This document shows, piece by piece, positions 1 to 14,700 of a stretch of DNA of 64,000 nt. The position numbers and the translations under genes were made by a program. Every line of letters begins with the position of its first letter. Within the stretch, counting starts at the first letter, position 1. The notes beneath the pieces were generated by a model that worked only from the letters and a program-made list of their open reading frames with translations, did not search any database and was not told the DNA's origin. Location of the stretch: contig CAJWUI010000008.1 of NCBI GenBank assembly GCA_913047695.1, positions 1-64,000 on the forward strand. Direction: 5' to 3'. Source of the stretch: an uncultured Bacteroidota bacterium (GTDB taxonomy: Bacteria; Bacteroidota; Bacteroidia; Flavobacteriales; Flavobacteriaceae).

Positions 1-84
1 AATATAGTAGTTGGAACTGCAATTATTGTTGGTATTTTAATTGGTATTCTTGGTGTACTTTACAAAGAGGGATTACTATTGTAA
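1..84 (+). CDS. C-terminal end of a small membrane protein (partial)
   Basis: An open frame enters from the left edge and stops with TAA at 82-84. The 27 visible residues are almost entirely hydrophobic (AIIVGILIGILGVLY) and end in KEGLLL, so this reads as a C-terminal transmembrane helix with a short tail. The arrangement resembles the C-terminus of the two-helix protein at 16346-16579, which ends in a similar GILIG-containing helix. The fragment is too short to identify, and coding status rests only on the open frame, the composition and the non-coding repeat that follows. Confidence 0.45.
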   Translation, partial: NIVVGTAIIVGILIGILGVLYKEGLLL

Positions 85-96
85 AATTTTCGACTT

Positions 97-126
97 AAAT
101 CATCGGCATATCCTCTTCATTAAGTT
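97..126 (+). repeat. Box A repeat, copy 1
   Basis: First copy of a ~30-bp repeat with core ATCATCGGCATATCCTCTTC. It sits about 10 bp upstream of a TTTGTATATT box (137-146) and 49 bp before the DUF4242 start codon. The 3' part forms an inverted repeat CCTC (112-115) / GAGG (127-130) with an 11-nt spacer. It may be an operator or a hairpin; function unknown. Confidence 0.8.
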
Positions 127-136
127 GAGGGAGTAA

Positions 137-174
137 TTTGTATATTAGAATCATTAAACTAAAAATAAATTAAG
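137..174 (+). promoter_or_regulatory. TTTGTATATT promoter-like box and A-rich leader
   Basis: TTTGTATATTA resembles the Bacteroidota -7 element (TAnnTTTG) and is followed by an A-rich leader ending in AAATAAATTAAG directly before the ATG at 175. No Shine-Dalgarno sequence is present. The same arrangement recurs before most genes of the array. Confidence 0.55.
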
Positions 175-459
175 ATGAATAAGTATTTAATCAAAAGAGA
201 AATTCAAGGGGCATCTCAAATACCTGGCGAAAAACTGGATGAAATTGGACAAGGCTCTGAATCAGTATTAATAGCTATGAGAAATGAAGGAAAACAAATT
301 GAACAAGAGCATAGTTATATTGCCGGGAATAATGTTTTTTGTGTTTATAATGCAGAATCAGAAGATTTTATAAAAGAACACTCTGAACGTGCTGGAGTTC
401 CTGCTAATGAAATTACATTAATATCAAGTATATTAGAACACAATACTAATAGTGACTAA
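175..459 (+). CDS. DUF4242 (SCO4226-type) domain protein
   Basis: This 94-residue protein matches the DUF4242 family over its whole length. It has the N-terminal YLIKREIQGA strand, the central HSYIAGNNVFCVY motif (about 46-58) and the C-terminal KEHSERAGVPANEI segment. The Streptomyces member SCO4226 binds nickel and adopts a dimeric ferredoxin-like (alpha/beta barrel) fold; whether this one binds metal cannot be seen. No signal peptide is present, unlike nearly every neighbour, so it is probably cytoplasmic. Its stop codon runs directly into box A copy 2. The fold matters because the two-repeat proteins further along the array look like the same fold class. Confidence 0.85.
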   Translation: MNKYLIKREIQGASQIPGEKLDEIGQGSESVLIAMRNEGKQIEQEHSYIAGNNVFCVYNAESEDFIKEHSERAGVPANEITLISSILEHNTNSD

Positions 460-487
460 ATCATCGGCATATCCTTTCCATTAAGTT
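458..487 (+). repeat. Box A repeat, copy 2
   Basis: This copy begins inside the stop codon (457-459) of the preceding gene. It differs from copy 1 in both arms of the inverted repeat, CCTT (473-476) and AAGG (488-491), with the same 11-nt spacer, so pairing is kept. A TTGTATATTA box follows at 499-508. Confidence 0.8.
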
Positions 488-537
488 AAGGTGCTAAATT
501 GTATATTATATGATATCAATGCATAAATCAATTTAAA

Positions 538-1038
538 ATGAGAAATATTCTATTTTCAATAATTTTAATTTCATTCATAATTTCTTGTCAAAATCAACCT
601 CAAAAAAGTGAAAAGGAATTAAAATCAGAAGCAAATCTAAAAATGGCTCAATCATTTTTTGATAATCTTTTTACAAATCCTGAAGTTTCAAAAAGTTTAC
701 TTCATAATGATTTTACTTTTTCTTGGATGGGTATAATTGAACAAGGAGGGGTATTATGGAATAGAGATAATTTATTTGATGAATATTTTAAAAACATAAT
801 TCCTGAAATCCTACCTAATGGTATCATCTTGAATACAGTTGATACTATTTACGATGAAAATGGTGTAGCAATAATTCAAGAGGGGGATGCAGAAGGCAAA
901 AATGGAGAATATGACAATAAATATGTGTGGATTTTCAAAATGAAAGATGGTTTAATTTATTCATTGAGAGAATATAATAGTGATATATTGGTTGCAACAC
1001 AATTGTATGATTACAAGCTAAGCCCCATTGATAATTAA
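538..1038 (+). CDS. NTF2/SnoaL-like lipoprotein
   Basis: A 166-residue lipoprotein: hydrophobic signal then lipobox FIISC with the lipidated Cys at 17. The mature part has the layout of the NTF2/SnoaL (cone-shaped alpha+beta barrel) superfamily: an N-terminal helix (MAQSFFDNLF), the loaded LLHNDFTF strand, and a C-terminal hairpin YVWIFKMKDGLIYSLREY that is typical of ketosteroid-isomerase-like proteins. Catalytic residues cannot be assigned. It follows the DUF4242 gene with box A copy 2 between them, and box A copy 3 begins at its stop codon. It is probably envelope-anchored. The fold is inferred from pattern, not from a search. Confidence 0.7.
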   Translation: MRNILFSIILISFIISCQNQPQKSEKELKSEANLKMAQSFFDNLFTNPEVSKSLLHNDFTFSWMGIIEQGGVLWNRDNLFDEYFKNIIPEILPNGIILNTVDTIYDENGVAIIQEGDAEGKNGEYDNKYVWIFKMKDGLIYSLREYNSDILVATQLYDYKLSPIDN

Positions 1039-1066
1039 ACCATCGGCACATCCTCTTCATTAAGTT
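1037..1066 (+). repeat. Box A repeat, copy 3
   Basis: Overlaps the stop codon of the preceding gene (1036-1038). Core reads CCATCGGCACATCCTCTTC. The right arm of the inverted repeat is degenerate (TTTGGG). A TTTTGTATATTA box follows (1076-1086), then a leader with the ATAAATCAATTAAAATG start context. Confidence 0.8.
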
Positions 1067-1113
1067 TGGGAGTATTTTGTATATTACTACTTATTAACCA
1101 TAAATCAATTAAA

Positions 1114-1617
1114 ATGAAAAAAATACTTCTCCTAATTTGTCTATCTCTAATTGGCTGTAATAATATGAGTCAGGAGAGTGATCACAAAATTAAATCAAAT
1201 GGATTCATAATAAATACAGATCAAAAAATTATGCTTGCTTCTGACGATGTAATTAACATTTTTAAAGCAATTGACAAAGCTTGGTTTGATAGAGATTATG
1301 ATAAAATAAAAACTCTTGTCGCAAAAGATGCAACTCTTCGTTTTGCAAATGGTGATAAAGGTGAAGGCCCAGACGATTTAATTAATTTAATTGAAAAAGA
1401 GTATCAAGAAAATTTGGAAAATGGAGTTGAATGGGGCTGGACTACGGACTATGCATTTTCAGTTAAAAATACTCCAACAGATAATCCAAAACCTGGAGAT
1501 ATTGGGGAGTGGGTTCTAGCAGAATTTACATCCGAAAAATTCAATACTATAGAATGGTATCAATTTAATGAGGGAAAGCTTATTAATTGGTATCAATTTA
1601 ATTCGCCTTTAAAATGA
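1114..1617 (+). CDS. NTF2-like lipoprotein
   Basis: A 167-residue lipoprotein, signal MKKILLLICLSLIGC with the lipobox Cys at 15. The start at 1114 is chosen because the shared leader TAAATCAATTAAAATG ends there and the signal peptide begins there; an in-frame start 48 bp upstream would lie inside the promoter module. The mature part has an NTF2-like plan: a helix with AIDKAWFDRDYDKIKTL, a VAKDATLRFANG strand, an EWGWTTDYAF strand and a C-terminal EWYQFNEGKLINWYQF hairpin. Function is unknown; the fold is inferred. A decayed terminator-like AGAGGG-T8 tract and box A copy 4 follow. Confidence 0.7.
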   Translation: MKKILLLICLSLIGCNNMSQESDHKIKSNGFIINTDQKIMLASDDVINIFKAIDKAWFDRDYDKIKTLVAKDATLRFANGDKGEGPDDLINLIEKEYQENLENGVEWGWTTDYAFSVKNTPTDNPKPGDIGEWVLAEFTSEKFNTIEWYQFNEGKLINWYQFNSPLK

Positions 1618-1647
1618 TAATATTTCCAACTAAGTAGAGGGTTTTTT

Positions 1648-1677
1648 TTATCATCGGCATATCCTCTTCATTTAGTT
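1648..1677 (+). repeat. Box A repeat, copy 4
   Basis: Complete core (TCATCGGCATATCCTCTTC) directly after a T8 tract, but without the TTTGTATATT box at the usual distance. The next start codon is about 120 bp downstream. The intervening DNA (1680-1798) contains only a five-codon ATG frame and may be the remains of a lost cassette. Confidence 0.75.
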
Positions 1678-1798
1678 CAGGTAATTATAACAACAATAGC
1701 TATCTATACTTAAATAGAATATATTAACTTGATTATTAACTGACATAATATGAGGCTTAAGAGCTGAATTGTAATCAATAAATTTTATTTTAGAGGCT

Positions 1799-2821
1799 AT
1801 GAAAAATGGCTTACCACTTGTCTTATTTATTTTTCTTGCAGGTTGTACTAAAGAATTCATTTTAGATGTAAGAGTAAACCCTCCAAATAGTGGAACTGTT
1901 TTTCCTTCTGAAGGAACTTTCAAAGACGGCAGTACAATAACTCTTAACGCTGCACCTAATGTTGAATATGTTTTTTCTAATTGGTCTGGTGATGCTAGTG
2001 GAAGTAATACCTCTGTTAATGTCACTATAGATGACAACAAAAATGTAGTTGCAAATTTCAGATTACGTCAGTATGAGCTTACAACTAATGTGCTAGGAGA
2101 AGGAAGTATTTCACAGACAATAATCAATACAGGTAAGTCCACAGATTATGACTCTGGAACAAGAGTATCACTTGAAGCAATCCCAGCTCAAGGATATTAT
2201 TTTAGTGGTTGGTCAGGAGCTTTAACCGGAGATACTAATCCTTCCGAATTAATTATTGACAGTCCAAAAAGTGTAACTGCAACTTTTATAAAAATATCAA
2301 CTTTTTTAGAAAGATTTGATGGTATTGGTTTTGAAAATATAAATGCAAATAATGAAGGAATTATCGATTATTTTTTTAGAGATTTGAATGCTTTTCATAA
2401 AAGGGTTCGGACTGATGAATCTATGAGCTACTTAAGAGATGAATTTATTTGTCTAAAATGTAAAACTTTTAGTGATGGTTATAATATTAATAGATGTACA
2501 GGTAACCCAGGAGAAGAAATTGGTTTTACCGTTACAATCATTGAAAATACTCTTGACAGATTTGTTTTTTCAGAAGATAATTTTAAAACTATAAGTCGGG
2601 GTCAATATGCTCTTGGAGGCGCGGAAGTTGACGATCTTGGCCCACCCTATAGATATCTTCATATTTACGAAGTGATTGATGATGCTACAATAAATTATAT
2701 AAATACGTCATATGCAGAATACTTATATAAAGATGGCGAAGAAGAAATGACATATGAAAAAATTTATCCGAAGACAGAAATTCAATTTTCATCGATTAAT
2801 TGTAATGGAATAAATGATTGA
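1799..2821 (+). CDS. Lipoprotein with two divergent InlB-type B-repeats
   Basis: A 340-residue lipoprotein with lipobox FLAGC (Cys 16). Residues about 20-87 and 88-165 are two copies of the bacterial repeat seen in Flg_new_2/InlB B-repeat families: each has a GxV/I-x-P start, a DGSTITLNAAPNVEY or SGTRVSLEAIPAQGY strand, a (F)SxWSGxxxG core and a closing D..K.V.A.F strand. The remaining ~175 residues contain a CLKCKTF motif and several further Cys and have no recognisable family. These repeats occur in surface adhesins, so a surface-exposed role is likely but inferred. It is larger than its neighbours and not of their folds. Confidence 0.75.
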   Translation: MKNGLPLVLFIFLAGCTKEFILDVRVNPPNSGTVFPSEGTFKDGSTITLNAAPNVEYVFSNWSGDASGSNTSVNVTIDDNKNVVANFRLRQYELTTNVLGEGSISQTIINTGKSTDYDSGTRVSLEAIPAQGYYFSGWSGALTGDTNPSELIIDSPKSVTATFIKISTFLERFDGIGFENINANNEGIIDYFFRDLNAFHKRVRTDESMSYLRDEFICLKCKTFSDGYNINRCTGNPGEEIGFTVTIIENTLDRFVFSEDNFKTISRGQYALGGAEVDDLGPPYRYLHIYEVIDDATINYINTSYAEYLYKDGEEEMTYEKIYPKTEIQFSSINCNGIND

Positions 2822-2838
2822 AACCCCACTTTAAAATT

Positions 2839-2862
2839 GTCATATCCTCTTCATTAACATCA
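2839..2862 (+). repeat. Box A repeat, copy 5 (5'-truncated)
   Basis: Only the right two-thirds are kept (CATATCCTCTTCATTAAC). The CGG segment is missing, but CCT/AGG arms remain. It lies 10 bp upstream of a perfect TTTGTATATTG box. Confidence 0.65.
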
Positions 2863-2870
2863 GGGGGTAA

Positions 2871-2908
2871 TTTGTATATTGTTACTCATTAACTATAAAT
2901 CAATTAAA
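2871..2908 (+). promoter_or_regulatory. TTTGTATATTG box plus ACTATAAATCAATTAAA leader
   Basis: The 41 nt from 2872 through the start codon to 2912 are identical to 4150-4190, ahead of the paralogous gene at 4187. The box resembles TAnnTTTG, and translation starts in an A-rich context without Shine-Dalgarno. Confidence 0.6.
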
Positions 2909-3394
2909 ATGAAAAAAATAAGTTTTTTTTTAATCCTTTTAACTACTTACTCACTTTTTGCTCAAGAGACTACAGGTAAGGTAAGGACACAGGATAAATA
3001 TTCTAAAGCCATTCTTGAAATCAATAGAGGTTACCTTATTAATGATTTCAAAGCATTTGATAAATATTTTGCAGAAAATGGGAACTACAGTGTTAATGGC
3101 AAAAAATTCAAAAAAAATCAAGTTAGAGAGGGATTTTCATCGGATCACAATTTTTTTAAAAACATAAAGATGCCTCAATCTTTTGTAGAAACAACTTTCT
3201 ATGATGAAAACAATAACAATCAAGTGTGGAGCCATCACTGGGGTGTCGTAGAATCTACGTCAAAAAGGACAAATGAAAATGCTGCTGTCCCAGTTAATGT
3301 CTCATTCAAATGGGTTGATGGAAAAATTGTTAGTGCCAGTTGGATTTTTGATCCATCTATCAAAATTCAAGAAATAATGGCTTCTCAAAAATAA
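2909..3394 (+). CDS. Secreted NTF2-like protein (paralogue of 4187-4666)
   Basis: A 161-residue protein with a type I signal peptide ending SLFAQ (about residue 20). It is a clear paralogue of the protein at 4187: both carry KYSKAI near the N-terminus, FVETTxYDENNNNxVWSHxWG in the middle and FKWVDGKIVxxxWIFDP near the C-terminus. The strand-rich second half and ending hairpin fit the NTF2/SnoaL superfamily. The conserved W and H of VWSHHWG are candidates for the pocket. The start was set at the ATG after the shared leader. Probably periplasmic or exported; ligand unknown. Confidence 0.75.
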   Translation: MKKISFFLILLTTYSLFAQETTGKVRTQDKYSKAILEINRGYLINDFKAFDKYFAENGNYSVNGKKFKKNQVREGFSSDHNFFKNIKMPQSFVETTFYDENNNNQVWSHHWGVVESTSKRTNENAAVPVNVSFKWVDGKIVSASWIFDPSIKIQEIMASQK

Positions 3395-3471
3395 TTGTAA
3401 TGGCTAAATAGACCGCTGTTCTTTAATTTTAGAGATATCCTAAAACTCTTTAATTATTATAAATTTGGATT

Positions 3472-4110
3472 GTGCAAGTTATTAGTTTTAGAGATTTCAA
3501 AAACGAAGAATTTTGGAATGTTTTAACACATTTTTCAGGTCTTATTTTATCTCTCATTGGTATACCTTTTTTATTCTATTTTGACAATGAAATAACACCC
3601 TTAAGTTCGATCTCGATAATATTATTCTCTATTGGTTTATTGCTTGTATACTCTTCATCATCTATTTATCATTTTACTCTAACCCCTGAGCTTAAAAGGA
3701 AATTTCAAGTATTTGACCATATAAGCATATATTATCTCATTATGGGTTCATATGCGCCTGTATGCTTAATAACTCTTTATAACTACTCGGGGAAGAGTAT
3801 TTTTATGGCTATATCAACTTTAACATTAGTAGGAACCTTAAAAAAACTTTTATTCACAGGGAAATATCAATTTATATCTCTCATATTATATTTAGCTATG
3901 GGATGGCTAATAATTTTTGATATAAATTCTCTTTTTAAATTAATTGATTTTAATGCTAAATTATTACTGATTCTCGGTGGTATTTCTTACACCTGTGGTG
4001 TAATATTTTATGTTCTGGATAAGATTAAATATTTCCATTCAATATGGCATCTATTTGTGTTAACAGGTTCAGGATTTCACTACTTTATGATATTGTTTCA
4101 CATAATCTAA
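3472..4110 (+). CDS. trhA: Hemolysin III / TrhA (PAQR) family membrane protein
   Basis: A 212-residue, seven-helix membrane protein with the PAQR/hemolysin III signatures: SSSIYHF after helix 2 (about 62-68), DHISIYYLIMGSYAP (about 82-96) and a C-terminal FHSIWHLFVLTGSGFHYFMI containing the His cluster. These Ser, Asp and His residues form the metal site in PAQR structures. Bacterial TrhA affects membrane-lipid homeostasis; hemolysin is a historic name. The start is GTG, as a stop lies only four codons upstream and no ATG intervenes. It sits between the duplicated NTF2-like cassettes and lacks their promoter module, so it looks like an insertion between them. Confidence 0.88.
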   Translation: MQVISFRDFKNEEFWNVLTHFSGLILSLIGIPFLFYFDNEITPLSSISIILFSIGLLLVYSSSSIYHFTLTPELKRKFQVFDHISIYYLIMGSYAPVCLITLYNYSGKSIFMAISTLTLVGTLKKLLFTGKYQFISLILYLAMGWLIIFDINSLFKLIDFNAKLLLILGGISYTCGVIFYVLDKIKYFHSIWHLFVLTGSGFHYFMILFHII

Positions 4111-4149
4111 ATCAGGGACAAATACTCTTTGTTAACTAAAGGGTATAAG

Positions 4150-4186
4150 TTGTATATTGTTACTCATTAACTATAAATCAATTAAA
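4150..4186 (+). promoter_or_regulatory. TTGTATATTG box and conserved leader
   Basis: Exact copy (to 4190) of the module at 2872-2912. Upstream, 4111-4146 contains only a weakly recognisable box A relic. Confidence 0.6.
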
Positions 4187-4666: not shown

Positions 4667-4689
4667 AAACTAACTTTCAAGATACAATA

Positions 4690-4712
4690 CCCTCCCAAGT
4701 GGAGGGTTTTTT
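4690..4712 (+). terminator. Rho-independent terminator
   Basis: Stem CCCTCC/GGAGGG with loop CAAGT and a T6 tract. Same stem and loop as at 6029-6051. Confidence 0.85.
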
Positions 4713-4742
4713 AAATCATCGGCAGATCCTCTTCATTAAGTC
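4713..4742 (+). repeat. Box A repeat, copy 6
   Basis: Begins at the end of the terminator T tract. Core ATCATCGGCAGATCCTCTTC with one substitution; the right arm of the inverted repeat is lost. TTTGTATATTG follows at 4753-4763. Confidence 0.8.
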
Positions 4743-4789
4743 TAGTGACTAATTTGTATATTGTAACTGACAAAATATAAATAAATAGT

Positions 4790-5233: not shown

Positions 5234-5244
5234 AATATTATTTT

Positions 5245-5274
5245 AAATCATCGGCATATCCTCTTCACTAAGTT
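5245..5274 (+). repeat. Box A repeat, copy 7
   Basis: Full core. The inverted repeat is one base pair longer than in copy 1: CCTCT (5260-5264) / AGAGG (5276-5280), again with an 11-nt spacer. TTTGTATATTG follows at 5284-5294. This is the last box A copy in the window. Confidence 0.8.
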
Positions 5275-5321
5275 TAGAGGTAATTTGTATATTGGATGAT
5301 ATTAACTATAAATCAATTAAA

Positions 5322-6008
5322 ATGAAAAAATTTATTTTATTATCATCATTTCTTGTTACATATTTATCACTTGGGCAAACAAGATATTGGACATCATATA
5401 ATTTTACTGTTGAACCACAAAATGAGGCAGCTATCTATAAACTTGTAGATGATTATTTTAAATCTAATCCTACATCCGAAAGTGTAAATGCATACTTATA
5501 TGAAAATCATTTCAAAGATAATGGCAATAATTACAGTCATTCATTTATTTGGGCGGGAACACTTGATGGTATGGGTGACCAGTATACACCAAAACAGGAC
5601 AAAGATTGGGAACTACTTTTAACAAAATTAACCCAACTCATCGATGAAACTCACAGCGCTGCTATGGGAAATACTGTCGTTAACCAGGGAGAAAATAAAC
5701 CTATCCAAAGATATTTTTATTTAGATGTTGAAGACCCAGCAAAATATTTAATGGCGTTTAAAAAGTACTTAAAATATAGACCTAAAGATCGTCAAGTATT
5801 ACTAGGGGGTTTTTCTGCGGGTAGATCTCCAGATGGAGAAAGTCATTGGATAATTGTTGGCTTTGACGATATGAGATCTGCAATGGATCCCGGAGCATAC
5901 AGAAGAACAAATTCACAAGCTCAAAAGGCCTGGGATGAATATAGAAAAAATAGAGGTGAAACACGTTTGGTAAGATCAGGGTTAAGAATTATGCTAGGAA
6001 GTTGGTAA
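5322..6008 (+). CDS. Secreted two-repeat alpha/beta protein
   Basis: A 228-residue protein with a signal peptide ending LSLGQ (about 19). Two halves of roughly 100 residues each start with a strand (YWTSYNFTVEP; QRYFYLDVEDP), continue with a helix (NEAAIYKLVDDYF; AKYLMAFKKYLK) and a strand with an SHxFIWAG or SHWIIVGF motif. The layout resembles duplicated dimeric alpha/beta-barrel (ABM/NIPSNAP-like) domains. It is the most divergent of the six such proteins here. The start at 5322 follows the shared leader. The ligand or activity is unknown; the fold is inferred. Confidence 0.65.
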   Translation: MKKFILLSSFLVTYLSLGQTRYWTSYNFTVEPQNEAAIYKLVDDYFKSNPTSESVNAYLYENHFKDNGNNYSHSFIWAGTLDGMGDQYTPKQDKDWELLLTKLTQLIDETHSAAMGNTVVNQGENKPIQRYFYLDVEDPAKYLMAFKKYLKYRPKDRQVLLGGFSAGRSPDGESHWIIVGFDDMRSAMDPGAYRRTNSQAQKAWDEYRKNRGETRLVRSGLRIMLGSW

Positions 6009-6028
6009 AAAATTATTTAATAATTATC

Positions 6029-6051
6029 CCCTCCCAAGTGGAGGGTTTTTT
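6029..6051 (+). terminator. Rho-independent terminator
   Basis: CCCTCC/GGAGGG stem, CAAGT loop, T6 tract; identical stem-loop to 4690-4712. Confidence 0.85.
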
Positions 6052-6126: not shown

Positions 6127-6909
6127 ATGAAAAAAATTTTACTACTGTTTTTAATGGTGCCTTTGTCACTACTATCTCAATCATTCGAATTCTTGCAAAT
6201 AAAAGTTAATGAAACTTCAATGAAAAAAGATTACGAAAAATTTGAAGCTATGTGGGCTAACGTCCATGAAGAAATACATAAAAAAGGAAATAAAGTAGGT
6301 TGGTATTTTTTTAAAGTTGTTCCAAATTCCAATAACGCAAGTAACCAAAAAGCTGATTTTGATTACGTAATTTTTAACTTTTGGAAGGATGATACTGCTC
6401 GAAAAGCAGGTTGGGGTGTAGAAGTCAACGATGCTTTTATTAAAAAATCTAATTACGGAAAGATGAAAAGTTCAGAAATAAAAAGGCTTTTGTCGGTTAG
6501 AAAAAAAATGAAGACAGAGTGGAAAAGTTATAGTATGACTGGGTTAGATGCTACTATTGACGTAGGTGGAGATCCAAAATTGGGTAATATAGTAAACTAC
6601 ATTGGAGTTAAAGCACTCAATGATGATTACGAAAACTATGAAATGAAATGGTTTAAAAATGGACACAATGAAGATATTTTAAGTGGAAGAAGAATAGCGT
6701 GGTATTTTAATAAAGTACTTTCAAGTTCTGAAAGCGCTGACAAATCTTTAACACACGCAATATTTGAAAGGTTTAATCCAAACGCTCCTCAAAGAGAACA
6801 AACAGAACCCTCTTTTGAACAACAAATGATGTGGAAACATGGAGGAGCTTCAAGAGAATTCGTTGAATATTGTACTTTGGAATTAATAAATTTTAGATCT
6901 TCTAATTAG
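6127..6909 (+). CDS. Secreted two-repeat alpha/beta protein
   Basis: A 260-residue protein with a signal peptide ending LLSQ (about 17). Each half shows the family pattern: a strand, then a helix with KKDYEKFEAMW or NDDYENYEMKW, then a basic stretch leading to GWYFFKVVP or AWYFNKVLSS, and a hydrophobic strand (FDYVIFNFW; LTHAIFERF). The repeated Y-E..E/K-W and W-Y-F-x-K-V signatures support an internal duplication of a ferredoxin-like (dimeric alpha/beta-barrel) unit. It resembles the proteins at 10564 and 13084. Its own promoter module and terminator suggest a single-gene transcript. Biochemical role unknown. Confidence 0.7.
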   Translation: MKKILLLFLMVPLSLLSQSFEFLQIKVNETSMKKDYEKFEAMWANVHEEIHKKGNKVGWYFFKVVPNSNNASNQKADFDYVIFNFWKDDTARKAGWGVEVNDAFIKKSNYGKMKSSEIKRLLSVRKKMKTEWKSYSMTGLDATIDVGGDPKLGNIVNYIGVKALNDDYENYEMKWFKNGHNEDILSGRRIAWYFNKVLSSSESADKSLTHAIFERFNPNAPQREQTEPSFEQQMMWKHGGASREFVEYCTLELINFRSSN

Positions 6910-6921
6910 TAAATTCATAAG

Positions 6922-6944
6922 CCCTCCTAAACGGAGGGTTTTTT
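6922..6944 (+). terminator. Rho-independent terminator
   Basis: CCCTCC/GGAGGG stem with a TAAAC loop and a T6 tract, downstream of the gene ending at 6909. Confidence 0.85.
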
Positions 6945-7017: not shown

Positions 7018-7551
7018 ATGAAAAAAATAATAACACTCTTATCCTTATTGTGGACGATTAGCTGCCAAAATCATACAAATAATAAAAAACAAGCCAGCAC
7101 GTCTTTACAATTAGAAAAAGACCTTGAAATGTACCAGAATGTATGGAATTCTTTTTTAGCAGGCGACACAAGTGTTGTAAATAACAAAAACTTCACAGAG
7201 GATGTAGTAATTGTAACATCCAATGGAGATCTAGTTGGGATAGATGCCTGTAAAGAATTTTATTTAAATTACCTGAATGGGTTTTCCGATATAGAGTGGA
7301 CTATTGTTGACGCATTTGGACAAGGTAATAAACTTATAAAACACTGGAATTTTAAAGGTAAACATACCGGAGATTTCTTCGGAATACCAGCTACAGGTAA
7401 TTCACTAAATCTGTCCGGTACCACAATAGTAACAATGCGTGAGGGAAGAATCGCTAAAGAGCATGATTTTTTTGATATGAAGTCTATGTTAGATCAATTA
7501 CTAAACTCAAAAGGAGATCTTACGGTAGACGAATATCAACCTATCAATTAA
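7018..7551 (+). CDS. SnoaL-like (polyketide cyclase-type) lipoprotein
   Basis: A 177-residue lipoprotein with lipobox WTISC (Cys 16). It is the clearest SnoaL-family member of the array: the core has MYQNVWNSFLAGD, GIDACKEFYLNYLNGFSDIEWTI, KLIKHWNFKGKHTGDFFGIP and a final GTTIVTMREGRIAKEHDFFD, which matches the ester-cyclase/SnoaL pattern in which the late H-D segment belongs to the active site. Related enzymes catalyse ring closure, but many family members are uncharacterised. Its upstream box is degenerate (TTATATTG). The 3' end overlaps the convergent gene at 7544 by eight bases. Confidence 0.82.
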   Translation: MKKIITLLSLLWTISCQNHTNNKKQASTSLQLEKDLEMYQNVWNSFLAGDTSVVNNKNFTEDVVIVTSNGDLVGIDACKEFYLNYLNGFSDIEWTIVDAFGQGNKLIKHWNFKGKHTGDFFGIPATGNSLNLSGTTIVTMREGRIAKEHDFFDMKSMLDQLLNSKGDLTVDEYQPIN

Positions 7552-8254
7552 CCTTAAAGATATCACTTAACTCATATTGAAGCTCTTCTAGAGTTAATAT
7601 ATAAAACTTTAAGGAAGAAATTCTAGTCTTAAAATACTTAAGCTGGACAATAAGATTTGATTTTAGCTTTTCATTTTCTTGAATAAACTTGTGTAAGGAC
7701 TTCAAATAATTTTCAAAACTTATTTTTGAATTGTTGCCTTTTAGAAAAAGTTTTGGGTTTTCCTGAGTTATCAAATCAATTATAAGTTCTATTATTTTTT
7801 TTTCATAATCTACTGTGGAAACAACTTTGCTAAAATTTAAATTATGTAAACGGGTAAGCGCTTCTTTAATATTTTCTGATTGTACATATTTTAAATCACC
7901 TGTATTGACCAAGGATCTATATCTATTCATTGGAGGATCAAAATCTCTATAATAAATTAGATTGTACTCAACCCTATTTTTACTAATAGCTATATTTTTT
8001 AATATTTCAATATTCAGTTTTTCGTTTAATAAAAGGTTATATATTTCTATGTCTTGGTTCCAAATTTTTATTCTTTCGTCACAATAATTTTTTATATCAT
8101 TAGATTCAACCAAAATACTTTTTAAGACTCTTTCTCTCTGGATTGATTTATCTCTTTCAACGGATATTTCACTTATCCAAAAGGAGGCTGAAATACCAAT
8201 AATAATTGCTATAATCTCAAGACCAAGTTTTAAAAAAAATTTTCTTTTGAACAT
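7544..8254 (-). CDS. DUF6090-like single-pass membrane protein
   Basis: A 236-residue protein: a basic N-terminus (MFKRKFFLK), one transmembrane helix LEIIAIIIGISASFWISE (about 12-30), then a long mostly helical domain rich in Lys, Glu and Asn. The membrane segment followed by ERDKSIQRERVLKSI resembles the Flavobacteria-specific DUF6090 family, whose role is unknown. The ATG at 8254 is preferred over a start 63 bp upstream because it gives a normal basic-TM N-terminus. It is on the opposite strand from its neighbours, lacks the shared module, and its stop overlaps the convergent SnoaL-like gene, so it looks like an unrelated insertion in the array. Confidence 0.7.
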   Translation of the reverse strand: MFKRKFFLKLGLEIIAIIIGISASFWISEISVERDKSIQRERVLKSILVESNDIKNYCDERIKIWNQDIEIYNLLLNEKLNIEILKNIAISKNRVEYNLIYYRDFDPPMNRYRSLVNTGDLKYVQSENIKEALTRLHNLNFSKVVSTVDYEKKIIELIIDLITQENPKLFLKGNNSKISFENYLKSLHKFIQENEKLKSNLIVQLKYFKTRISSLKFYILTLEELQYELSDIFKVN

Positions 8255-8334
8255 TTTTACCCTTTTTAAGGCAATATAACTATTTAATATTAGGTTGTTT
8301 AAACATAATAAACTCATATTAAATTCAGCGCATC

Positions 8335-9117: not shown

Positions 9118-9236
9118 ATCCTATTAAAATTTTAAACCCTCTTTCTAAAGAGTATATTATTTAATTATTTAAAATTTTTTAGAGAGAGAGTTTATATTTT
9201 ATATATTACATACTTGTCAAACATAAATAAATCAAA

Positions 9237-9752
9237 ATGAAAAGAATATTATTTTTTTGCTTAACCGTAGTTTATATATCATGTCAAAATAATCAAACAA
9301 TTGATAATTCTGATTGGGCTGGGTTTTCAACTCAAAATGACGAAAGGACAAAAATTGTTGAAAAATTAGCTAAGGGATACGAGAGAGGAGAATTTGAAAT
9401 TGCTCGAGAATATTTTTCTCCTGATAGCAAACACATGGTCAACATGCAAGTTTTTAATGTAGACCAAATTATTGAAGGTTATAACTTCCATTCGGTGTTG
9501 TATGATAAAATTCAACATATTGATCCTGTTGTTCATACAACCAAATATAATAATGATAGCATATTCACAAACCAATGGGCAAATTGGAGTGGAATTTCAA
9601 AAATTACTGGTGAGGAGTTAAAGTTAACATTTCATTGCTGGTGGAAATGGGAAGGAGACAAAATTGTACAAACGCAATGCTATTTTGAAACTGCAGATTT
9701 ACTAAAGGAAGCAGCCTTATATGCTGAAACCCAAAATGCTAAAACACAATAA
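9237..9752 (+). CDS. NTF2-like lipoprotein
   Basis: A 171-residue lipoprotein with lipobox VYISC (Cys 16). The mature part has helix TKIVEKLAKGYERGEFEIAREY, strand FSPDSKHMVN, the segment NVDQIIEGYNFHSVLYDKI, and strands containing FTNQWANWSG and LTFHCWWKWEGDKIVQ. The aromatic WxxWSG and HxWWKWEG strands parallel the VWSHxWG and FKWVDGKIV blocks of the 2909/4187 pair, so it is probably a distant paralogue. The upstream box is degenerate (TTTTATATATTACA). A perfect terminator follows at 9777. Function unknown. Confidence 0.68.
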   Translation: MKRILFFCLTVVYISCQNNQTIDNSDWAGFSTQNDERTKIVEKLAKGYERGEFEIAREYFSPDSKHMVNMQVFNVDQIIEGYNFHSVLYDKIQHIDPVVHTTKYNNDSIFTNQWANWSGISKITGEELKLTFHCWWKWEGDKIVQTQCYFETADLLKEAALYAETQNAKTQ

Positions 9753-9776
9753 CAAACTTAATTTTTAAAAAGACAA

Positions 9777-9804
9777 AAGACCCCTCTTTAAAAAGAGGGG
9801 TCTT
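9777..9804 (+). terminator. Terminator, bidirectional in form
   Basis: A 13-bp perfect stem (AAGACCCCTCTTT / AAAGAGGGGTCTT) with a two-base AA centre, between the gene ending at 9752 and the convergent gene ending at 9887. The T tract is short in both directions. Confidence 0.75.
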
Positions 9805-9886
9805 GATTTATAAACTTGAATCTCTGAGGAAATATATAATCTAGAAAATTAAAGCTAGAGGTATTTATTTCTATTTAATTAGTTTT

Positions 9887-10381
9887 TTATATTTCCCCAC
9901 TACATAGTGCAAGTTCTTCCTCCATCAATTTTGTATTATACATGTGGTACTCTTCAACAATTTTGTTTCCCTCGCCCCATTTAAATCCTATGTGTACAGG
10001 TATTGAAATGGTGTTACCTGATACAGAGCTAGTCGCTTTCCAAATAAACCAAGAACTTGTCCATGTATTGCCGTTTGGATAAGTTTTTGTTTCAATTATA
10101 GCATCTTCTAGAAAAGATGGTATTTCTGAAAAACATTTATGTTGGGCGATGATAAGATTAGAAATATCTTCGACACCTGATTGCTTTGTCTCAGTTAAAT
10201 ATATTTTGAGATTTGGAGACCATAAACTTTTTAATCCTTCGATATTATTATCCAAATAGTTTTGATAGTGAGATCTAATTGATTTGGTTTTTTCGTCATC
10301 AAATGTGACTATAGTTACATCAGATTTATTATTTGCGCAACCAAATAACAGTGTGATTAGTATTAAATAATGAAATTTCAT
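9887..10381 (-). CDS. NTF2-like lipoprotein
   Basis: A 164-residue lipoprotein with lipobox LLFGC (Cys 15). The start is the ATG at 10381, because the minus strand just upstream carries the array leader (TATAAATCAATCAAAA) and a perfect TTTGTATATTG box. The mature part has DDEKTKSIRSHYQNYLDNNIEGL, a LWSPNLKIYL strand, SSWFIWKATS and VHIGFKWGEGNKIVEEYHMY, parallel to the 9237 protein (NQWANWSG, CWWKWEGDKIVQ). It is therefore an inverted paralogue within the NTF2-like group. Ligand unknown. Confidence 0.7.
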   Translation of the reverse strand: MKFHYLILITLLFGCANNKSDVTIVTFDDEKTKSIRSHYQNYLDNNIEGLKSLWSPNLKIYLTETKQSGVEDISNLIIAQHKCFSEIPSFLEDAIIETKTYPNGNTWTSSWFIWKATSSVSGNTISIPVHIGFKWGEGNKIVEEYHMYNTKLMEEELALCSGEI

Positions 10382-10408
10382 TTTTGATTGATTTATAATT
10401 ATAGCACT

Positions 10409-10419
10409 CAATATACAAA
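10409..10419 (-). promoter_or_regulatory. TTTGTATATTG box (minus strand)
   Basis: CAATATACAAA on the plus strand reads TTTGTATATTG towards the gene starting at 10381, with the usual A-rich leader between. Confidence 0.6.
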
Positions 10420-10528
10420 GAACTTTAATAACTCAATTTTTTATTATTTCACAAATAAATTCAACTTATATACGTACAAATTGTAATGAATCAAAATTGA
10501 AATCTCCCAACTAAATTTAAAGAACTTA

Positions 10529-10563
10529 TTTGTATATTGGTGTTTAACTATAAATCAATCAAA
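10529..10563 (+). promoter_or_regulatory. TTTGTATATTG box and conserved leader
   Basis: TTTGTATATTG at 10529-10539 followed by GTTTAACTATAAATCAATCA and the ATG at 10564. It is divergent from the 10409 box, so 10382-10563 is a two-way promoter region. Confidence 0.6.
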
Positions 10564-11358
10564 ATGAAAAGACTAATATTTTTAATACTATTACTTCCAT
10601 TATCAACTAGTGCTCAATATGCTGTAGCTGACTTTTTTGTTATTAATGAAGGTATGGAAAAAGACTACGAAAAGTTAGAAATGGCCTGGTCTATTTTCAG
10701 ACAAAATCAAATTGATAAAGGCCAAAAAATGGATTGGGCTGTTTGGAAAATAACTCCTAGAAAAGATGATAGAGCTAATGCAGCAGATTATGTTGTTTTT
10801 AATCAATTTAAAACAAAAGAAGAGATGGACAAATATCTTAAAGGAGATTCCAATTTTTCTTATTCTTCAGCTGCATCAATAATGAGAAGGGGTATGAAGG
10901 GGATGTCAAAAAATTCAATTTTGCGTCTTATAACACCTAGTAAAAATAAAATCAAAAAAGAGGTTAGAACTTACCAAATTCAAATTTTAGACGCAACTCC
11001 TTTTACAGGAGGGGACCTAAAAATTGGTGAAAAAATAAATATGGGTGCAATGGTTCAAAAATCTGACGATTATGAACAAATGGAATCAAATATTTATAAG
11101 CCTTATGTTCTAGAACAAGTGAAAAATGGACTTCACAGAGGTTGGGCTTTTGTCAAGGTTATTGGTAAAAGTGAAAATGCATTTAATGAAGTAACACACT
11201 TCACATTTAATATTCCTGTTGAAGGTGCTAAATGGCCACCCTTTTTTTTAGAAAATGAATTTATCACAAAAAAACTTACTGATATGATGGTTAATTCAAG
11301 AAGTACACCCTATGGTGGCGCTGAACTTACTTTGATGATGCAAAAACAAAGTAATTAA
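10564..11358 (+). CDS. Secreted two-repeat alpha/beta protein (close paralogue of 13084-13866)
   Basis: A 264-residue protein with signal peptide ending STSAQ (about 17). Repeat 1 runs YAVADFFVINEGMEKDYEKL..W, DWAVWKITP, ADYVVFNQF, then EMDKYL. Repeat 2 runs KINMGAMVQKSDDYEQMESN, GWAFVKVIG, THFTFNIPVE. Between them the linker TYQIQILDATPFTGGDLKIG is almost identical in the 13084 protein, so this pair is the most recent duplication in the family. The arrangement fits a tandem dimeric alpha/beta barrel, with the linker as a possible pocket lid. No catalytic motif is recognisable. It has its own promoter module and terminator. Confidence 0.75.
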   Translation: MKRLIFLILLLPLSTSAQYAVADFFVINEGMEKDYEKLEMAWSIFRQNQIDKGQKMDWAVWKITPRKDDRANAADYVVFNQFKTKEEMDKYLKGDSNFSYSSAASIMRRGMKGMSKNSILRLITPSKNKIKKEVRTYQIQILDATPFTGGDLKIGEKINMGAMVQKSDDYEQMESNIYKPYVLEQVKNGLHRGWAFVKVIGKSENAFNEVTHFTFNIPVEGAKWPPFFLENEFITKKLTDMMVNSRSTPYGGAELTLMMQKQSN

Positions 11359-11384
11359 TTTCTGATTAATCTAATTTTATTATA

Positions 11385-11407
11385 CCCTCCAACTTGGAGG
11401 GTTTTTT
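11385..11407 (+). terminator. Rho-independent terminator
   Basis: CCCTCC/GGAGGG stem, AACTT loop, T6 tract. Its T tract touches the stop codon of the convergent gene ending at 11406. Confidence 0.85.
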
Positions 11408-11780
11408 ATTTAAATTCTACACTAGCAGAGGATATTATTTTTACATCTCCTTTTTCTAAACCAATTTTAACTTTATAGTCTTTGTGATATTGAGTTTTAG
11501 GTATTGTATCCAGAATAAATCTTAAGTGTTTAATATCTTCAGCTGTAATCAAAGTATAATAGTTTGCATTCATAACTTCTCCATCATGAATTTTCGCAAT
11601 TGTCATTTTACCGCCATCTAAAATTGGTTCTATTTGTTTTCTTAATTTAACAAAAGCCTTTTCATAGAGTTCTGGATATTTAACATCAAGAAAGAATTGC
11701 ACGCCAATTTTATTTTGTGGTTTTTTAGAATCGCATCTAAAAAAAAGAAATAAAATTAGTCCCAGAAATATTTTTTTCAT
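11406..11780 (-). CDS. Small lipoprotein of unknown family
   Basis: A 124-residue lipoprotein with a signal and the Cys at 16 (LFFRC, a poor but usable lipobox). The mature part is a strand (IGVQFFLDVKY), a long helix (LYEKAFVKLRKQIEPI), and strands separated by YYTLITAEDIKHLRFIL. This beta-alpha-beta order could be a single ferredoxin-like unit, but I see no family signature. It lies 12 bp downstream of the gene ending at 11793 with no terminator between, so the two are probably co-transcribed. Confidence 0.6.
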   Translation of the reverse strand: MKKIFLGLILFLFFRCDSKKPQNKIGVQFFLDVKYPELYEKAFVKLRKQIEPILDGGKMTIAKIHDGEVMNANYYTLITAEDIKHLRFILDTIPKTQYHKDYKVKIGLEKGDVKIISSASVEFK

Positions 11781-11792
11781 TTCAATTGAATT

Positions 11793-12422
11793 TTAATTAT
11801 ATAATTGATCGTTACAAGAGTATTCTCTTACTTCATCAATAGTTGTTGTTCCATTTTCTAAAAAATAGTACGTCTCTGAATTATTTTCATCGATATTATC
11901 ATTCTCATCTGTTGTATATGATTTTATTATTTCTCTGGATTCAAAAATAAAAAGTCCATCTATTTTTTCATCTGCTTCATTTTCTTGAGTGTACGTACAA
12001 ATACTAAAACTGTCTTCATTTACTCTGCAAAGTTTTCTATATCCATAGTCTTCTTCGTTATCAATTTTATCGAAATCAAAACTTAAATTATAAACTTGTT
12101 TTTGTACACATTCTCGTGAATTTACATCTGCACAAACTCTATACTGGTAACTAATTTGCTCTACAATACCTCCTGTACCTATATAAAGAAGCACTTGGTA
12201 ACGATAATTACAAGATTGATCTTCATATTGGTCATTATAATCGAGATCTAAAATGTATGTAATATCTTCATATAATTCTAAAGATGTGTTTTCAACAACA
12301 CCCTCTATACCTTGATTTGTTTCTGGAATAACAACTTTTACGCCAATACCTTGCTCAGTTGAATTGCAGCCAAAATGGACAAATAAGGCTAAAAAAACAA
12401 GTAAATATAAAACCCTTTTCAC
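11793..12422 (-). CDS. Acidic lipoprotein of unknown family
   Basis: A 209-residue lipoprotein with lipobox VHFGC (Cys 19). The mature part is very acidic (runs such as NEEDYG, ENEADEKIDG, TDENDNIDENN) and strand-rich, with Cys residues in NYRYQV-, YRVCADV-, RECVQ-, KLCRV-, SICTY- and EYSCN- contexts, which suggests two or three disulfides after export. I recognise no family. It appears to be the first gene of a pair with 11406-11780. It lacks the TTTGTATATT module. Confidence 0.6.
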   Translation of the reverse strand: MKRVLYLLVFLALFVHFGCNSTEQGIGVKVVIPETNQGIEGVVENTSLELYEDITYILDLDYNDQYEDQSCNYRYQVLLYIGTGGIVEQISYQYRVCADVNSRECVQKQVYNLSFDFDKIDNEEDYGYRKLCRVNEDSFSICTYTQENEADEKIDGLFIFESREIIKSYTTDENDNIDENNSETYYFLENGTTTIDEVREYSCNDQLYN

Positions 12423-12503
12423 TAGAAAAGTTTTGAAAATAATTTAAAACAAGATCTATATTTTTTTTAATAAATGATTTTGAGCTTTTCAGGTATTTTT
12501 TCA

Positions 12504-13013
12504 TCATTTTGGCAGAGTATTAGGATTAAAATAATAGGTTTCTCCAATCATTTTATTATTATCATCGAAAAAATGACCTATCATTAAATGAATTGGTCCT
12601 TGGTTTCCAGATAATTTATTTCGCCATGTAAATTGCCACCATGAAATGACTAAATCGTTCGCTTCTTTGTAATCGAAATGGTCAGGATAACCAAGCTCTT
12701 TAATACTTATTATTTCGTGAGTATTAAAAATTTCACCCATATTTTCCATTTCCTGATCAAGATCCATACTCTTACCAAAGGGACTTTTTTCATCCATATT
12801 ATTTAGCGCATCTCTAAATTCAAGCTTATCAACAGATATTTTCTCGTAAGCTTTTTTAATTTTCTTAATATTATTAGTCTTATATACATTCATAAGATTT
12901 CTCACGGCCTCAACATATGGGCCGTTTTTATATATAGTACCATTATTTTCTTTTTCTTGAGAAAAAGATTTAAACGAAAAAATTAAAAATAAAATAGTAA
13001 CTGATAGTCTCAT
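12504..13013 (-). CDS. Secreted NTF2-like protein
   Basis: A 169-residue protein with a signal peptide ending KSFSQ (about 19). The mature region contains YVEAVRNLMNVYKTNNIKKIKKAY, a strand-rich middle, VISWWQFTWRNKLSG and a closing LMIGHFFDDNNKMIGETYYF hairpin. The W-W-x-x-T-W-R strand and the D-D/G-N-K-I/M hairpin mirror the other NTF2-like proteins here, so it is placed in that group with moderate certainty. The upstream minus strand has TTTATATT and a TTAACTATAAATTAACCAG leader, a degenerate copy of the shared module. Confidence 0.62.
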   Translation of the reverse strand: MRLSVTILFLIFSFKSFSQEKENNGTIYKNGPYVEAVRNLMNVYKTNNIKKIKKAYEKISVDKLEFRDALNNMDEKSPFGKSMDLDQEMENMGEIFNTHEIISIKELGYPDHFDYKEANDLVISWWQFTWRNKLSGNQGPIHLMIGHFFDDNNKMIGETYYFNPNTLPK

Positions 13014-13049
13014 CTGGTTAATTTATAGTTAATGAATATAAACTTACGA

Positions 13050-13074
13050 AAAACCCTCCAAAATGGAGGGTTTT
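13050..13074 (-). terminator. Bidirectional terminator
   Basis: AAAACCCTCC-AAAAT-GGAGGGTTTT, symmetrical, so it can act on both strands. On the minus strand it lies just past the stop of the gene ending at 13084. Confidence 0.8.
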
Positions 13075-13083
13075 AAATAATGT

Positions 13084-13866
13084 CTAGTTACTTTGATAAA
13101 CTAAGGTGAGCTCCTGAGCATTTCGCATTTCTCTAGAGCTGCTTATTTTATCGTTTAAGACTTTTTGAACAAATTCATTTTCAATAAGCCGATCATCAAA
13201 TTCAGCACCAGGGATAAAAATATTCCAAGCTATATGGGAAATTTCCTTATATGCCTGATCATTTCTGTTTATAACCTTTGTAAACGCCCACCAGCGGTGT
13301 TTTCCATTCATAACTTGCTGAAGAAAGTATGGTTTAGCTATGTAAGATTCAACTTGTTCATAATCGTCGGATTTTTGAATCATAGGTGCAAAAGTCATTT
13401 TATCCCCAATTTTTAAATCTCCCCCTGTAAAAGGAGTTGCATCTAGAAGTTGCAGGTGATAAGTACGTACTTGCTTTTTTATTTTTTGCTCTGATTGAAC
13501 AATTTTTCGAATAGATCCTGTAGACATACCTTTAAGGTTTGACTTCATAACAGAAATCGCATTATTCATAGAAAAATTTCCTCCTCCATTGATATAATTA
13601 TCCATTTGCTCTTTAGAACTAAACTGATTGAAAACTACATAATGAGCAGCATTTTCATTATCACTATCTGTTGCGGTTCTTTTCCATACAGCCCAGCTGT
13701 TCTTTTCTCCTTTTTTTATAGAATTTTTGTGCCAAGCTCCCCAAACTTTTTCAAGTTTATGATATTGTGAGTCCATGCCTTTATTCAAAACAATGAAATC
13801 TGCTACAGCGTACTGAGCTGAAAGAGTTAAAGGCAAGATTAATAATAATAAGAATAGTTTTTTCAT
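13084..13866 (-). CDS. Secreted two-repeat alpha/beta protein (close paralogue of 10564-11358)
   Basis: A 260-residue protein with signal peptide ending TLSAQ (about 17). It matches the 10564 protein throughout: YAVADFIVLNKGM, SWAVWKRT, AHYVVFNQFSSKEQMDNYI, the linker LQLLDATPFTGGDLKIG, and QKSDDYEQVESYIAKPY. The two halves repeat a strand-helix-W-strand unit, consistent with duplicated ferredoxin-like domains. It is encoded on the opposite strand from its paralogue, about 1.7 kb away, so the duplication was accompanied or followed by inversion. The leader on the minus strand (ATAAATCATTCAAAAATG) is a variant of the shared one. Function unknown. Confidence 0.75.
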   Translation of the reverse strand: MKKLFLLLLILPLTLSAQYAVADFIVLNKGMDSQYHKLEKVWGAWHKNSIKKGEKNSWAVWKRTATDSDNENAAHYVVFNQFSSKEQMDNYINGGGNFSMNNAISVMKSNLKGMSTGSIRKIVQSEQKIKKQVRTYHLQLLDATPFTGGDLKIGDKMTFAPMIQKSDDYEQVESYIAKPYFLQQVMNGKHRWWAFTKVINRNDQAYKEISHIAWNIFIPGAEFDDRLIENEFVQKVLNDKISSSREMRNAQELTLVYQSN

Positions 13867-13904
13867 TTTTGAATGATTTATGATTAATAATTCCCTAAAT
13901 ATAA

Positions 13905-13930
13905 AAAAACCTCCATTAAGGAGGTTTTAA
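13905..13930 (-). terminator. Terminator-like hairpin
   Basis: AACCTCC (13908-13914) / GGAGGTT (13920-13926) with A and T tracts on the two sides; lies between the stop of the minus-strand gene at 13936 and the start region of the next minus-strand gene. Confidence 0.75.
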
Positions 13931-13935
13931 AATTT

Positions 13936-14700
13936 TTATTCAAGCATTGTTACCTTTCGTATAATTACACTTTCTCTTAAATCTCGAATATTAAGCATAG
14001 TTTGGTAGCTTTTGTTAGCATCCCAACTGGCTGTATTTGCTCTTGTTTTTATTACATCACTAAATTTTGAAAACCAGTCAACAGTAAAGTAATTCCAGTA
14101 AACATCGACACCAACTTTATCGATTCTCTTGGCTAAAGACCAACCTGTTCTTAATCCTTTTTTGTTGAGACCATTTATATAGAGGTCTTTTTCCATTTTT
14201 TCATAGGTTTTAAACTTGCCTTCTTTAACTTTCATCCAGTTTACTACCCCTATATCGTCAGGTAAGTTCACGTTTTCATCTCTTTTAATATCCTTTACTG
14301 GCATAAAAAAAGCCTCCGCAACAATTTCCCTTTTTTCTCTCACACTGTCCATAAATGCTGTCCAATCGGAATCAGTCATTCCAGGAACTGCATCATTTCG
14401 CATTTTAATCCATCCTTCAGTACTTCTTTCTTTCTCCATTTGACTTAGTAACATTGGTTCTACAATCATATGAGTGAAAGGAGCTTGAGGATTCGCTACC
14501 ACTTCCCAAAGATGCCACCCTTGCTGGTATCCGGCATCAATTCTTTTTTGAGCCATTTTGCCAAATTTAGTTTTAAGGTCTTCAGCATAGTTATTACCAG
14601 GCTTAACTTTAATGAATGTCTGTCTTAAAACAACTTTATCTTGTCCGCTTAAAGAAATCGAAAAGAATAATATCAATATTAGTAAAAAGTATTTTTTCAT
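13936..14700 (-). CDS. Secreted two-repeat alpha/beta protein
   Basis: A 254-residue protein with a signal peptide ending SLSGQ (about 19). Repeat 1: LRQTFIKVKPGNNYAEDL, then KRIDAGYQQGWHLWEVV and FTHMIVEPM. Repeat 2: IGVVNWMKVKEGKFKTYEKM, then KGLRTGWSLAKRID and YWNYFTVDWFSKF. It shares the G-W-x-L-x-x-x/K pattern with the 8374 protein and is the same two-unit design as the other members. The minus-strand upstream region has TTTGTATATTT (14727-14737). No enzyme motif recognised; probably periplasmic or exported. Confidence 0.68.
   Translation of the reverse strand: MKKYFLLILILFFSISLSGQDKVVLRQTFIKVKPGNNYAEDLKTKFGKMAQKRIDAGYQQGWHLWEVVANPQAPFTHMIVEPMLLSQMEKERSTEGWIKMRNDAVPGMTDSDWTAFMDSVREKREIVAEAFFMPVKDIKRDENVNLPDDIGVVNWMKVKEGKFKTYEKMEKDLYINGLNKKGLRTGWSLAKRIDKVGVDVYWNYFTVDWFSKFSDVIKTRANTASWDANKSYQTMLNIRDLRESVIIRKVTMLE

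Follow-up and report, generated by a model that had tools for sequence, protein, structure and literature searches.

Gene row and repeats at the locus

The DNA analysed (the window) covers the first 64 kb of contig C8 (80 kb) in a 1.96-Mb genome (89% complete) of an uncultured member of the Flavobacteriaceae. The first 14.7 kb of the window contain a row of about 21 genes, which is probably the cassette part of a transfer RNA (tRNA)-anchored, integron-like system that would recombine at the 3' end of its own integrase gene. The row was noticed in an original prediction, in which 15 of the genes were assigned to two folds (N1 to N9 and D1 to D6) and one to a DUF4242 protein. The open reading frame (ORF) list confirmed the positions given there and contains five further genes in the same interval (1799-2821 and 3472-4110 on the plus strand; 7544-8260, 11406-11780 and 11793-12422 on the minus strand). 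Other genomes, contigs and loci are cited by G, C and L numbers. The genes are as follows.

175-459, plus strand: SCO4226-like protein (DUF4242; PF14026 match in Pfam, E 7e-15)
538-1038, plus strand: N1, sub-threshold SnoaL_2; 80% nucleotide relative in L089
1114-1617, plus strand: N2, sub-threshold SnoaL_2 in Pfam
1799-2821, plus strand: InlB B-repeat lipoprotein
2909-3394, plus strand: N3, NTF2-like protein of the N4 family; 88% nucleotide relative in L097
3472-4110, plus strand: HlyIII-like membrane protein (named by reading); relatives in L066 and L100
4187-4666, plus strand: N4, NTF2-like by predicted model; cassette 90% identical in nucleotides in L085
4790-5233, plus strand: N5, sub-threshold DUF4440 in Pfam
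5322-6008, plus strand: D1, D-family candidate; no D-family link by profile comparison
6127-6909, plus strand: D2, D family by profile comparison
7018-7551, plus strand: N6, SnoaL (PF07366) by Pfam
7544-8260, minus strand: X238, no family match; 97% amino acid relative adjoining N6 in L066
8374-9117, plus strand: D3, D-family candidate; no D-family link by profile comparison
9237-9752, plus strand: N7, N4 family by profile comparison
9887-10381, minus strand: N8, N4 family by profile comparison
10564-11358, plus strand: D4, two-repeat alpha/beta protein by predicted model and structure match
11406-12422, minus strand: two small ORFs (124 and 209 amino acids), in the same place in G249
12504-13013, minus strand: N9, probably an N4-family relative; absent at the equivalent place in G249
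13084-13866, minus strand: D5, D family; absent at the equivalent place in G249
13936-14700, minus strand: D6, probable D family; absent at the equivalent place in G249

Upstream of most genes in the first 5.3 kb lies a repeat of about 36 bp, termed here the attachment (att) repeat, together with a promoter-like sequence. These elements are listed below.

95-130, plus strand: att repeat copy 1, which matches the integrase 3' end as its reverse complement, with no mismatch in the core (99-124)
456-491, plus strand: att repeat copy 2 (26-nt core with 2 mismatches), overlapping the preceding gene at its stop codon
1035-1070, plus strand: att repeat copy 3 (2 mismatches), likewise overlapping the preceding gene at its stop codon
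1646-1681, plus strand: att repeat copy 4 (1 mismatch), which lacks the usual promoter-like sequence after it
2829-2864, plus strand: diverged att repeat before N3, 5 mismatches
4107-4142, plus strand: strongly diverged att repeat before N4, 8 mismatches
4711-4746, plus strand: att repeat before N5, 1 mismatch; directly 3' of a terminator-like stem
5243-5278, plus strand: att repeat before D1, 1 mismatch
1076-1085, plus strand: example copy of the promoter-like sequence TTTGTATATT, putative function
Starts at 137, 2871, 4753, 5284, 6091, 8335 and 10529, plus strand, and 10410-10419, minus strand: further copies of TTTGTATATT

A repeat search detected direct repeats of about 76 nt upstream of genes in the window. 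When aligned, they consist of a left block, TTAAATCATCGGCATATCCTCTTCATTAAGTTnAGG, a promoter-like sequence, AATTTGTATATTG, and a leader before the ATG. The left block is well preserved (at most 5 mismatches in 26) before 6 of 23 genes and has diverged before N4; farther right in the array, the promoter-like part is often kept without it. In several cases the att repeat overlaps the stop codon of the preceding gene. For 15 of the 23 genes examined, the 60 nt before the gene contain TTTGTATATT with at most one mismatch (the 5th percentile for random windows is 2 mismatches), and the conservation of upstream regions described in the original prediction is thus above chance. The exact promoter-plus-leader pattern occurs six times in the genome, always in this array, and its reversed control does not occur. 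A promoter-like sequence that every module has beside its repeat is a better explanation for the co-control that had been proposed for the row.

Terminator-like stems that are almost identical to one another (CCCTCC...GGAGGG, then T) are located between genes at 4686-4710, 6025-6049, 6918-6942, 11381-11405 and 13050-13074. No RNA family reached the gathering threshold within the window, and a tRNA search of the window found none.

Identity of the repeat with the integrase 3' end

The other strand of the repeat reads CTT AAT GAA GAG GAT ATG CCG ATG ATT TAA, that is, LNEEDMPMI and a stop codon. This is the exact end of a tyrosine recombinase (integrase) gene located at the very start of contig C2 (20-1063, minus strand). 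A search of its own genome with the integrase protein returned only the protein itself at E <= 0.001. At up to 3 mismatches the repeat occurs 11 times genome-wide (six copies in the window, one in the integrase and four elsewhere), and the reversed pattern gives 0. Three of the four copies elsewhere are followed by the same promoter-like sequence and a gene, one of these genes being a relative of D4 and D5, and a more diverged copy lies upstream of an N2 relative. In the integrase tail, LTYLRGLExxELxEEDMPMx, conservation is strong as far as DMP and weaker beyond it.

The integrase was detected in 6 of 249 genomes of the family (E <= 1e-40) and in 12 of 395 genomes of the class (profile search, 1e-60), its own genome included in both counts. 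From public genome contigs, 79 integrase loci were obtained (best 80 of 183 relatives); 68 have a readable tail, and the other 11 were dropped. In most of the 68 the integrase frame is open, about 350 amino acids long and ends at the site. In L121 the integrase frame is short (213 amino acids) and has Asn instead of the catalytic Tyr (SLTNLRG), as if decayed.

The repeat tracks the local integrase. Searches with each locus's own tail detected 58 extra copies near the integrase in 25 of the 68 loci, compared with 1.2 for control windows of the same genes and 0 for reversed tails. When the tail of another locus was used, 23.2 copies were found on average and at most 41 in 5000 permutations. A 36-nt version of the tail gave 51 copies in 27 of the 68 loci (control 0.7, reversed 0). 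Genome-wide, G136 contains 16 copies of its own version, including the integrase end (reversed control 0), and the corresponding numbers are 2 in G188, 1 in G123, 1 in G020, 3 in G137 and 0 in G170. Of nine further regions, several of them from contigs already in the set, seven have readable tails and two have extra copies; in one of these two, L161, the extra copy is a second integrase-like end. Contig ends lie within 3 kb downstream in 24 and upstream in 12 of the 68 loci, and within 300 nt in 4 and 7, respectively; they were not used as evidence.

Cassette architecture

The copies are placed between genes. Of 87 copies, a set that includes the G136 integrase end, 45 have a same-strand ORF that ends in the 60 nt before them, compared with 5% of random positions and 11 copies for the opposite strand. 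Similarly, same-strand ORFs start within 160 nt after 53 of the 87 (random positions 12%, opposite strand 15). At the integrase itself, a convergent ORF ends within 100 nt of the stop codon in 33 of 64 loci (random 7.9%) and abuts or overlaps it in 18 of 64 (random 0.8%), 15 of these 18 by four bases. The order gene, att, gene, att and then the oppositely directed integrase is directly visible in G136, L070, L076 and L085. As in integrons, cassettes bounded by candidate recombination sites adjoin the integrase.

Among integrase pairs that are at least 90% alike over the last 159 nt (33 pairs, not independent of one another), identity is about 0.96 up to the stop codon and falls to 0.3 immediately beyond it. 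Over their first 600 nt, the same pairs (loci L059-L137) have a median identity of 0.64, so that the integrase gene looks mosaic in these alignments. One G136 cassette is present at two places (278 nt, 95% identity); it starts right after short and long forms of the site, and its other boundary is less clear.

Turnover and sharing of cassettes

A close relative, G249 (recA 88%), has the same locus with flanks 84-86% alike and a different array. The G249 array contains 12 repeats (at most 6 mismatches), all in one direction. The first 146 nt of the window are 94.5% alike to G249, after which another cassette follows there, and the segment 12480-16130 of the window is missing from the G249 locus. 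The SCO4226-like gene, the block of the HlyIII-like gene with N4, and the block of N6 with X238 are found elsewhere in G249, no more than several kb from its integrase, at 83-91%. In the 19 kb fetched at the locus in G137, a genome of the same genus, the repeat was not found at up to 6 mismatches. A D6-like gene start, as if a remnant, is present at this array-less locus (L155, G137:C34, 4179-4466, reverse orientation).

Cassettes of the window recur in other genomes in different orders. Several are more similar than recA of the same genomes (L085, 90 vs 79; L097, 88 vs 78; L089, 80 vs 71; L095, 81 vs 75). The description of the row as a diversified paralogue set had missed its organising feature, namely an integrase-derived repeat that bounds modules, with a differing array in a close relative and shared modules in new orders.

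Linkage to tRNA genes

A tRNA or tRNA fragment lies beside the integrase in 58 of 61 upstream windows, matched with a tRNA set drawn from the same loci (types Met, Asn, Ala, His, Arg and Val), compared with 1 of 141 random windows. One tRNA directly upstream of the integrase is at L012:1110-1196. The G249 array lies 3' of tRNA-Ala (C2 176,347-176,421), and an att-like block with 2 mismatches in 20 begins four bases after this tRNA. Such adjacency is not general (1 of 56 tRNA genes vs 3 of 280 random windows). Because the integrase adjoins a tRNA in 58 of the 61 windows, the enzyme probably inserts whole islands at tRNA genes, and the use of att would be a second activity. Among 53 loci scanned, tRNAs of the same type occur on both sides of the integrase in L060, L078, L123 and L128. 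The tRNA-Ala-bounded island at L060:9868-18939 carries a complete type I restriction-modification system.

Similar-looking proteins of 72-114 amino acids are encoded near the integrase or tRNA at L067:11426, L128:11905, L061:12265, L045:13790 and L172:18741. They have no Pfam match above the cut-off and could be a partner of the integrase.

Proteins encoded by the cassettes

Structures were predicted for two of the 15 proteins on the fold list, N4 and D4. The N4 model (4187; mean predicted local distance difference test score, pLDDT, 90.6) best matches SnoaL, limonene-epoxide-hydrolase and polyketide-cyclase structures in the PDB, which are NTF2-like. The D4 model (10564; pLDDT 84.6) matches two-repeat alpha/beta-barrel proteins, including 5f9p, 2pgc and 3f44. 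The models support both of the pocket folds that had been proposed.

Membership of the two groups was upheld in part. Nine NTF2/SnoaL-like proteins had been named. By profile comparison N3, N4, N7 and N8 are one family (probability 99.9 for the N4 family against N7 and N8), N9 is probably linked to it (88.8), and N6 clears the Pfam SnoaL cut-off; N1, N2 and N5 have sub-threshold Pfam SnoaL or DUF4440 matches, and profile comparison did not link them to the N4 family or to N6. Among the six proteins named as two-repeat alpha/beta, D2, D4 and D5 are one family (99.8 for the D4 family against D2) and D6 probably belongs to it (75.8); membership of D1 and D3 was not established by profile comparison. 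Both families have relatives in the arrays of other marine Bacteroidota, and the co-occurrence that the original prediction called for was thus found.

By a crude rule, applied to the cassette ORFs as a set and not protein by protein, 33 of 61 distinct cassette ORFs look exported, compared with 8 of 40 other ORFs of the window. At E <= 0.01, cassette ORFs match SnoaL_2 (7), DUF4440 (6) and SnoaL_3 (4), and these sets overlap. Matches of cassette ORFs to PADLOC models are to single members only. The cargo is biased to small exported proteins, among them proteins with NTF2-like and two-repeat alpha/beta folds.

Proposed mechanism and alternative explanations

The reading of the row as an integron-like cassette array draws on the repeat, its match to the integrase 3' end, the matching across genomes, the architecture, the differing arrays at one locus, the sharing of cassettes and the tRNA linkage, all of which are sequence observations. 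A cassette would consist of a promoter-like sequence, usually one gene and an att site of about 30-36 bp. The dedicated tyrosine recombinase, normally adjoining a tRNA gene or fragment and reading toward the cassettes, would excise and insert cassettes at att, preferring the site formed by its own last codons. Since the att site lies inside the integrase coding sequence, each capture would supply the end of the enzyme (ELxEEDMPMx and the stop codon) anew, along with the stop codon for the gene that comes in. The catalytic role of this enzyme, the position of the crossover, the activity of the promoter-like sequence and the functions of the cargo are all putative.

Several observations weigh against this reading, in which recombination at att is a prediction from DNA comparison. 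The enzyme seems to act mainly on tRNA genes. A good repeat precedes only the six window genes noted above, 43 of the 68 loci have no extra copy in the fetched flanks, the complete genome G123 carries just the integrase-borne copy, and in the Flavobacterium ammonificans locus L115 no extra copy was found within 7 mismatches. Synonymous sites at the integrase 3' end gave no clear sign of special constraint (0.67 in the last 12 informative codons vs 0.88 elsewhere, with another stretch at 0.62). Some cassettes are not closer than recA (L103, 70 vs 78; L100, 78 vs 77, about equal; N6 in L089, 69 vs 71). Among the 58 extra copies, 17 reach 60-90 nt and 2 are long integrase remnants. The integrase and the array are also on different contigs (C2 and C8). 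C2 behind the integrase is about 86% alike over 11 kb to the DNA left of the G249 tRNA-Ala, and by this alignment C2 and C8 are probably the two sides of a single locus interrupted by an assembly gap.

The long remnants are what would be expected of an additive genomic island, in which successive insertions at tRNA-Ala were followed by loss of the integrases and the repeats of about 36 bp are scars of lost integrase genes. The tRNA linkage and the same-type tRNAs on both sides of four integrases agree with this, and Methylophilaceae islands with repeats of a tRNA end provide a precedent in the part of PMC10872708 that describes them. Scars would mostly need a single endpoint, whereas 39 of the 58 copies are short, and similarity to the integrase ends sharply after about 30-36 nt in G000 and G136. 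Most copies have no visible tRNA fragment, and att-like blocks beside tRNA genes are no excess over random windows. Such an origin is unlikely.

Tandem duplication, with homologous recombination between similar leaders making and shuffling the array, would account for the clear paralogue pairs N3/N4 and D4/D5 and for upstream similarity that extends about 80 bp among array genes. Unrelated genes share the same arrangement and the repeat is the integrase end across genera, so that duplication alone was set aside as a very unlikely source of the array. A regulon in which the repeat serves as operator or promoter-upstream element, and in which the integrase inserted beside one copy and gained its 3' end from it, is highly improbable and was set aside in its pure form: the repeat does lie directly upstream of a shared promoter-like sequence, and several array genes have the promoter without the repeat, yet the repeat tracks the local integrase in many genomes while the sequence 3' of it differs between them, and the integrase tail is conserved as protein in 73 integrases.

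A wider form of the cassette-capture reading is held tentatively. The system may be a gene-capture platform unrelated by origin to integrons, in which the last codons of the enzyme are the capture site and cassettes rewrite the enzyme end; mobile as a tRNA island, it would supply marine Bacteroidota with secreted small-molecule-pocket proteins and other cargo. If so, Bacteroidota of the ocean, despite the rarity of integrons, would possess their own cassette system, with another type of enzyme and site, in which the recombination site and the enzyme end are the same DNA. This would then account for hypervariable islands and for some of the small secreted proteins whose function is unknown, and the repeat would be a sequence handle for cassettes in metagenomes.

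Comparison with known systems

The integrase has no relative in 37 pattern stretches of viral contigs and matched nothing among plasmids (1e-30) or phages (1e-20), and its identification as a phage or plasmid integrase was set aside; it does match PHROG integrase profiles. The arrangement was not found described in the open-licence PMC literature, a search that did not cover preprints.

Tycheposons and other tRNA-integrated islands are likewise bounded by tRNAs, vary in their cargo and have a tyrosine recombinase at their end. In the additive flexible genomic islands of Methylophilaceae, as presented in the relevant part of PMC10872708, repeats of the tRNA end mark successive insertions; here the repeat is the integrase 3' end and bounds cassettes of about one gene.

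The archaeal suicidal (SSV-type) integrases have the recombination site inside the integrase gene (PMC8371274). Integration splits these genes, which were described in 2021 as exclusive to archaea. The candidate site described here is also within the integrase gene. It differs in that the site would restore the gene end, and the examined loci have open integrase frames, apart from exceptions such as L121. The pdif sites of Acinetobacter are often inversely oriented, whereas the copies near the integrase here mostly share one direction. According to the portion of PMC9455709 on pdif modules, these are mobile modules bounded by short tyrosine-recombinase sites. XerC and XerD serve those sites, whereas the site described here is part of the gene of a dedicated integrase.

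Integrons are most similar in arrangement. Both systems have mostly single-gene cassettes, short bounding sites and an adjoining tyrosine recombinase; in both, arrays are also found away from the integrase (as in clusters of attC sites lacking integrases, CALIN), and the cargo is small and often of unknown function. The integron cassette protein Bal32a, which has an alpha+beta barrel, is cited in the reference list of PMC3548836. In Bacteroidetes, integrons are very rare; a passage of PMC9024848 names one complete integron there, in Salinibacter ruber, and the same source states that most integron cassettes lack promoters. The cassettes here, in contrast, seem to carry promoters, judging from the promoter-like sequence. 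The enzyme also differs, scoring 18.7-28.4 bits on TIGR02249 in four integrases (25 for that of the window's genome) against a cut-off of 265. Folding of the attC kind was rejected for the site, which folds no better than its shuffles (six 100-nt DNA folds, z -1.48 to 1.23), and the site lies inside the integrase gene. The array is real and integrase-linked; it is integron-like by its arrangement and is not an integron by its enzyme or its site.

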